DNA from: Deltaproteobacteria bacterium SG8_13
GTDB taxonomy: Bacteria; Desulfobacterota; Desulfobacteria; Desulfobacterales; SG8-13
Assembly (NCBI GenBank): GCA_001303025.1
Contig: LJNK01000001.1
Coordinates: 64,041 to 128,040, forward strand
Direction of reading: 5' to 3'
Length of the DNA stretch: 64,000 bases
The translations under genes were made by a program, and so were the position numbers. Positions within the stretch are counted from its first letter, which is position 1, and each line of letters begins with the position of its first letter. Of the stretch, positions 50,353 through 51,967 are shown piece by piece. The notes beneath the pieces were generated by a model, which saw nothing but the letters and a program-made list of their open reading frames with translations, did no database searches and was not told where the DNA came from.

Positions 50353-51240
50353 ATGGATCAGCAGGAAAAAAGAGTCGACGGATTTCGATTCATGCCGCCC
50401 GGACTGGCGGCGTGGATACAAACATTCATTCCGGACGAGCAGTTCAACGGACCGATCCCCTGGACACCACTTGCTCGTCCCCTGTCCCAGGCGACTGTGG
50501 CACTGATCACCAGCGCCGGCATCAGCTGCAAATCGGATCCGCCTTTTGACATGGAGCGGGAGAAACGCGAGCCCACCTGGGGGGACCCAACCTACCGGTG
50601 TATTCCCAGAAACACCGCGGCTGCGGATATCGACGTCAATCACCTGCACATCAACACCGATTACATCCGTAAAGATCCGGACGTGATGCTGCCGCTGACC
50701 CGATTGGCGGAATTTGAAGCCGAGGGCATCATCGGGCGCCTGGCACAGACCGCCTACTCCTTTTACGGGTTTCAGTGGCAAAACGAGCGATTCATCGACG
50801 AGGCGATCCGGCCGATGGCCTCCAGGATGAAGTCCGAACAAGTGGAAGCCGTGCTGCTGACCCCGGCCTGACCTTTCTGCTGCCGGTCCGTGGGACTGGC
50901 TGCAAGAGTGCTGGAGGAAGACGGATTTACGACGGTTATTCTAACGCCCACACACGAATTCAACCGCGAGGTGGGCATCCCGCGATCGGTGGCGCTGGAG
51001 TACCCGTACGGCCGGCTGCTCGGTGAGGTGGGCGATGCAGACGGGCAGCGCCAGGTGCTGCTGGCAACGCTGGCAGTTTTAGAACAGGCGCAGGCCCCCG
51101 GACAGGTGAAGCACCTGCCGTTCGAGTGGCCGGAGGATCCCCGGCATACCCACTGGCATCCGCCCGAAATGAGCCCCATCGTAAAGGCTCATCTGGACGA
51201 CATCAAACGGGCCAGGGAGCGCATGAAAGAGCGCGGTTGA
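50353..51240 (+). CDS. Glycine/sarcosine/betaine reductase selenoprotein B-like protein (Sec at in-frame TGA 50869-50871)
   Basis: The frame is open from ATG 50353 (behind AAGGAGG) to a TGA at 50869, then continues in the same frame to a TGA at 51238. Codon 173 is the internal TGA; around it the protein reads LLTPA-U-PFCCRSVGLAARVLEEDG. Related GrdB/PrdB-family proteins have a CPVCHQSVGL-type motif there, so Sec replaces a redox Cys in a UxxC pair. The half after the TGA keeps family features (IPRSVALEYPYGRLLG). A hairpin follows the TGA directly. The full product is 295 aa, soluble; its substrate is unknown. The cysteine-cluster gene starts one base after its stop. Confidence 0.85.
50879..50903 (+). 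promoter_or_regulatory. Candidate bacterial SECIS hairpin
   Basis: GCTGCCGGTCC (50879-50889) pairs with GGACTGGCTGC (50893-50903) around a GTG loop: nine Watson-Crick pairs, one G-U pair and one T-T mismatch. The stem begins 7 bases after the TGA and its loop starts 18 bases after it, with G as first loop base, all within the usual limits for bacterial SECIS elements. Confidence 0.7.
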
Positions 51241-51241
51241 A

Positions 51242-51967
51242 ATGACCCGTACCCGAATCGAACCTTCCGCTCCGCAGTGCCAAAGGTGCGGCACCTGTTG
51301 TAAAAAAGGGGGCCCGGCGCTGCATAAAAAAGATCGGGTGCTGGTGGAAAGCGGCCGGCTGCCGCTAACGGATCTTTTCACCATCCGCCGCGGGGAGCTG
51401 GCCCGGGACAATGTCCGCGGAACGTTGCAGCCACTGGACACGGAGATCGTCAAGATCAAGGCCCGGGAGGCTGCATCTTGGACCTGCCGTTATTACAGCG
51501 ACCATGACAGTGCCTGCCGGATCTATTCCACCCGGCCTTTAGAGTGCCGCGTCCTGCAATGTTGGGATACCCGGGAAATCGAGCGGCTTTACAGCGTTGG
51601 AAGACTGCGGCGAAAAGACCTTTTGGTTCCGGTGGAAGGTCTCTGGGACCTGATCGTCGATCACGACAGGCGATGCAGCTACGAAAGCCTCCACCGGCTG
51701 ACAAGACGGCTGAAATCAGGTGGCGGTGAAGCGGACGCTGGAAAAGTTCTTGAAGTCATCCAGTACGATGCCGAGCTGCGGGATCTGGTAAACGAAAGGG
51801 GCAACCTGGATCCGGAGATGCTCGACTTTCTCTTCGGCCGCCCCCTGACCCGGACCGTCGGCCAGTTCGGGATACGGGTGGAATGCGAGAATGGGAAGGT
51901 TGTCCGGCTGGTTGTCGAACGTTCGGTGGATACCGGCGGTGTGGGTAATCCGAAGACAGGCCAATGA
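51242..51967 (+). CDS. YkgJ-family cysteine cluster protein
   Basis: The 241-aa soluble protein begins with CQRCGTCCKKGG (about residues 14-25), and continues with CRYYSDHDSACRIYSTRPLECRVLQC (cysteines near 80, 90, 99 and 104), the YkgJ zinc or iron-sulfur cluster pattern. The C-terminal half has no known motif. Its ATG starts one base after the selenoprotein stop, so the two are very likely cotranscribed and perhaps functionally paired. Confidence 0.8.
   Translation: MTRTRIEPSAPQCQRCGTCCKKGGPALHKKDRVLVESGRLPLTDLFTIRRGELARDNVRGTLQPLDTEIVKIKAREAASWTCRYYSDHDSACRIYSTRPLECRVLQCWDTREIERLYSVGRLRRKDLLVPVEGLWDLIVDHDRRCSYESLHRLTRRLKSGGGEADAGKVLEVIQYDAELRDLVNERGNLDPEMLDFLFGRPLTRTVGQFGIRVECENGKVVRLVVERSVDTGGVGNPKTGQ

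Follow-up and report, generated by a model that had tools for sequence, protein, structure and literature searches.

A PrdB-like gene with a conserved in-frame UGA in a deltaproteobacterium is predicted to encode a selenoprotein that most likely acts without a pyruvoyl partner

The window, a stretch of 64,000 nucleotides from Deltaproteobacteria bacterium SG8_13, contains a PrdB-like gene in which the UGA at codon 173 almost certainly encodes selenocysteine (Sec), as judged from comparative sequence analysis. We hold with high confidence the explanation as a whole, namely that the product is a genuine selenoprotein, that it belongs to a clade of its own in the PrdB/GrdB superfamily, and that it is most likely free of a partner subunit. 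The relevant features are as follows.

50353 to 51240, forward strand: PrdB-like gene for a predicted selenoprotein of 295 amino acids, with Sec at codon 173 in a UPFCC motif; one frame, single internal TGA.
50869 to 50871, forward strand: in-frame TGA, read as Sec; Cys in some homologues.
50872 to 50880, forward strand: P-F-C codons that complete the UxxC motif; Cys176 is invariant across the alignment.
50879 to 50903, forward strand: predicted bacterial SECIS hairpin, beginning 7 bases past the TGA, with the apical loop GUG at 50890 to 50892.
51242 to 51967, forward strand: downstream gene of 241 amino acids with a PF03692 domain (CxxCxxCC, putative metal-chelating), beginning 1 base past the stop codon.

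A GGAGG ribosome-binding site lies just 5′ of the ATG at 50353, and the frame that follows is interrupted by one stop only, the TGA at codon 173, directly before codons for PFCC. Translation thereby bears out the original prediction of a TGA at 50869 within one continuous frame and of a U-P-F-C motif at that site. The expectation that automatic annotation would split the gene agrees with mechanical ORF calling, which yields fragments of 172 and 116 amino acids, the second starting from GTG 50890; the split is corrected here. Each half is recognizable by itself, the N half matching PF07355 (3.5e-12) and TIGR04483 (1.8e-24) and the C half matching TIGR04483 (5.4e-10), and the homologue search that had been proposed for the two halves together returned proteins that span both. 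The nearest relative (L022) is 84% identical in each half, with third codon positions taking most of the changes between the two genes on both sides of the TGA. Thus, the part of the gene that follows the TGA is under selection at the protein level.

A scan of one genome per species across ∼85,000 species recovered 26 related loci. The 25 that cover the site belong to Thermodesulfobacteriota, Nitrospirota, and Chloroflexota, and every one of them has TGA at the equivalent codon, a position that is therefore not due to chance. In a second sample, comprising 395 genomes of the phylum, close relatives (61–68% identity) were found in 14 further genomes, again with TGA at the site, along with more distant relatives, most of which contain one internal TGA. 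Because the two samples share some genomes (for example, L026 and L080), they are not fully independent, and the close relatives amount to 29 distinct proteins. These data bear on whether the TGA is a real stop in a pseudogene or an artefact of sequencing, as a single in-frame TGA can come from error and the assembly is a draft of 125 contigs. The comparative data refute this reading, to which we give next to no credence: the same TGA recurs in every spanning locus across many assemblies, the C and N halves show the same constraint at the protein level, and the hairpin described below is conserved and shows synonymous constraint.

The aligned codon is also TGA in authentic PrdB of Peptoclostridium, Terrisporobacter, and Ligilactobacillus, and is a Cys codon in PrdB of Enterococcus gilvus (TGT) and in a Haematobacter homologue (TGC). 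The alternation of TGA with Cys at this column is, from the alignment, that of a classical Sec/Cys pair. The original prediction had placed the TGA where homologues have the first Cys of a CxxC motif, which holds for the E. gilvus and Haematobacter proteins but not for the near homologues, which have Sec. Among the more distant homologues, conservation of the predicted Sec is not absolute: a PrdB-like gene at L076:1504-2169 has Gly (GGA) where all of its sampled kin have TGA, a one-base difference that is either natural or an assembly error. Two loci carry a partial second copy of the C-terminal part downstream of the full PrdB-like gene (L026:8093-8272 and L051:3651-3830), matching residues 212–271 of the query at 65% identity. 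Of 16 genomes sampled from the same order, none contains a close relative, and in the tree the nearest relatives beyond L022 fall in other groups; the distribution of the gene across the sampled genomes is consequently patchy, perhaps through horizontal transfer.

The hairpin was found exactly as originally described, starting 7 bases after the TGA and stable. Positions 50869 to 50910 (42 bases) fold at −19.9 kcal/mol (z = −3.6), a stability equalled by 1 of 200 shuffled sequences, and the inclusion of longer flanks gives z-scores of −1.7 and −2.5. In bacterial SECIS-like elements, the hairpin directly follows the UGA and has a small apical loop containing a G (PMC1088965), a description to which the GUG loop here conforms. 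Nearly all close homologues form the stem: among 24 sequences, 95% of stem cells are paired, vs 13–49% in a control in which the partner strand was slid. Only two compensatory changes occur in the stem, a modest covariation that results from the near invariance of the protein sequence at the hairpin. Codon choice is a stronger test for a SECIS element than covariation. Measured at conserved codons with four- or six-fold degeneracy, synonymous diversity falls from 0.69 outside the hairpin to 0.41 within it, and none of 186 ten-codon control stretches is as low as the hairpin; the codon for Ser179 is TCC in 27 of 29 sequences and that for Leu182 is CTG in 28 of 28.

The check for Sec machinery that had been suggested shows that this genome encodes SelA (608 bits), SelB (328 bits), and SelD (371 bits), as well as a tRNA-Sec (76.5 bits) with anticodon TCA (UCA), all scoring above cut-off. 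The selD gene (L018; G000 contig C34:9626-10549) has an internal TGA, and SelD of this organism is probably itself a selenoprotein. Readthrough or Trp recoding, in which the UGA is read as some other amino acid, would produce a full-length protein as well, but is hardly credible: homologues have Cys at the column, the genome has an intact Sec system that includes a UCA tRNA-Sec, a SECIS-like hairpin follows the codon, and the PrdB-like frame itself terminates at TGA, with homologues ending in TAA, TAG, or TGA. The conservation of the TGA, the existence of Cys homologues, the conservation and synonymous constraint of the hairpin, and the presence of SelA, SelB, SelD, and tRNA-Sec together give strong support to the Sec reading. 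Sec insertion had been put forward in the original prediction on the understanding that homologues should cover both halves, that the genome should hold Sec machinery, and that Cys should occur in the alignment at the TGA; all three were found. The host machinery would thus decode codon 173 as Sec, with insertion presumably directed by the hairpin.

The assignment to the GrdB/PrdB family stands at the level of the superfamily but not at that of function. The protein scores 44.8 bits against PF07355 (gathering cut-off 22) and carries the UPFC motif, which together place it in the PrdB/GrdB superfamily. Against TIGR01917 (GrdB) it scores 38.7 bits where 602 are needed, and it is not a full-length GrdB. 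The PrdB equivalog model TIGR04483 is its best NCBIfam match (E 1e-41) and covers most of the protein, which is 34% identical to authentic E. gilvus PrdB and has the UxxC motif in the same place. These likenesses are what would be expected of a true PrdB, a subunit of D-proline reductase whose PrdA the assembly has missed. We consider this very unlikely, given that the score of 142.9 bits falls short of the TIGR04483 cut-off of 300, with authentic PrdB sequences at 310–453, and that the gene lies outside the PrdB clade. In a maximum-likelihood tree, the 29 close sequences are monophyletic (100/99) and PrdB forms a separate monophyletic group (100/100).

The distribution of the pyruvoyl subunit also argues against a true PrdB. 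This genome and 13 of the 14 other clade genomes yielded no member of PF09338, the family of GrdE and PrdA, whereas in a control the same search was positive in all four genomes with long GrdB-type homologues. Since this genome is ∼91% complete, absence from it alone would be weak evidence, but the pattern across the clade makes assembly gaps an unlikely cause. In the sole clade genome with a PF09338 protein (G258), the gene for it is on a separate contig and adjoins a long gene of GrdB type. A search of the genome of SG8_13 for GrdA (PF04723) and one for PrdD (TIGR04482), both run without a positive control and hence not counted as demonstrating absence, gave no match. Authentic PrdB adjoins prdA in Enterococcus, Ligilactobacillus, and Terrisporobacter; no prdA was seen beside the gene in any clade locus.

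The gene and the downstream PF03692 gene are probably co-transcribed, given that only 1 base separates them. The closest relative, L022, shares this gene order, which the other clade members do not have. The neighbours vary by lineage: some loci adjoin thymidylate kinase/holB and others an arsenosugar cluster, PBP1 is found elsewhere, and the lineage studied here has pyruvate:ferredoxin oxidoreductase together with the CxxCxxCC protein. Operon context was accordingly rejected as a clue to function, the adjacencies being lineage-specific. The arsenosugar loci raise the question of whether the clade serves the chemistry of arsenic or organometals and not general redox. Five loci of a Syntrophaceae-related group (L028, L031, L032, L036, and L037) adjoin, divergently or in line, a cluster of ArsS, glycosyltransferases 1 and 2, and a VTT-domain protein, and ArsS is also encoded in this genome (G000 contig C119:2629-3528), with an internal TGA of its own. 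We regard such a role as very unlikely and rejected the link: the five related loci are a single group among about 25, the gene having elsewhere the other neighbours listed above, and ArsS is found both alongside the gene and in its absence, with several clade genomes having no ArsS above cut-off. A literature search turned up no paper on arsenosugar in combination with a selenoprotein and a radical SAM protein.

Elsewhere in the same genome is a second PrdB-like gene (L049 / L093, about 1523-2330; G000 contig C46), with TGA at the equivalent codon in the context VPV-U-PKCHQ. It adjoins genes for a knotted carbamoyltransferase (ygeW), two PLP-enzyme-like proteins, and a TRAP transporter.

With PF09338 missing from most clade genomes and neighbours that are not conserved, the PrdB-like gene of the window looks stand-alone. 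Its product is probably a stand-alone UxxC selenol oxidoreductase rather than a reductase of D-proline or glycine, both of which are unlikely substrates, and the protein would most likely work without a pyruvoyl (PrdA/GrdE) partner. In a confident AlphaFold2 model (pLDDT 94), Sec173 follows a strand (residues 166–170) and directly precedes a helix (residues 174–189). A sequence search of solved structures found no relative, its single weak hit, to a rod outer segment protein (E 0.01), being ascribed to chance, and a fold search with Foldseek gave no significant match (best E 0.036). From the UxxC motif and this model we suggest a mechanism in which Sec173, positioned at the N terminus of the helix, may act as a selenolate nucleophile. 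Cys176 would then resolve it through a selenenylsulfide, which a thioredoxin-like donor would reduce. We give this mechanism an even chance. More tentatively, the UPFCC clade may constitute an undescribed family of selenoenzymes that carries out reductive chemistry on a new substrate without a pyruvoyl subunit.

Selenoproteins resembling PrdB and GrdB have been known since 2005, and PrdB-type ones are on record from Deltaproteobacteria as well as from metagenomes of the ocean. Reports of Sec-containing PrdB homologues with UxxC cover 42 sequences from the Sargasso Sea (PMC1088965), 235 from the GOS data (PMC2398784), and examples in Deltaproteobacteria, Anaeromyxobacter and Geobacter uraniireducens among them (PMC1794560), and a 2026 review includes D-proline reductase among prokaryotic selenoproteins (PMC13188914). 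It is less well known that this clade is without the partner to be expected of a ‘proline reductase’: PrdB and GrdB require a pyruvoyl subunit, which this clade mostly lacks. Proteins of sulfate-reducing and syntrophic bacteria that homology would name ‘proline reductase PrdB’ can thus come without a partner for proline reduction. Should the stand-alone reading hold, the clade represents a widespread, Sec-retaining enzyme of anaerobic bacteria.

The PrdB-type selenoproteins of marine metagenomes and Deltaproteobacteria share Sec and UxxC with this gene (PMC1088965, PMC2398784, PMC1794560); the family is there named proline reductase PrdB, and those sets may include the UPFCC clade. Selenoprotein B of glycine, sarcosine, and betaine reductases (GrdB, GrdF, and GrdH) resembles the protein over C-terminal positions 215–345 of the GrdB profile and in the UxxC motif, but has an N-terminal half that is missing here, and no GrdE (PF09338) was found to accompany this gene. 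Residues 36–259 are homologous to PrdB, the D-proline reductase (dithiol) subunit modelled by TIGR04483, which has Sec or Cys in the same column and shares the UxxC motif. The present gene differs from PrdB in lacking a nearby prdA, in belonging to a clade whose genomes nearly all lack a PF09338 partner, and in scoring under half of the model cut-off. It further differs in its extra terminal segments (residues 1–35 and 260–295) and in a second Cys directly after UxxC, which gives UPFCC where PrdB has UGTCH.
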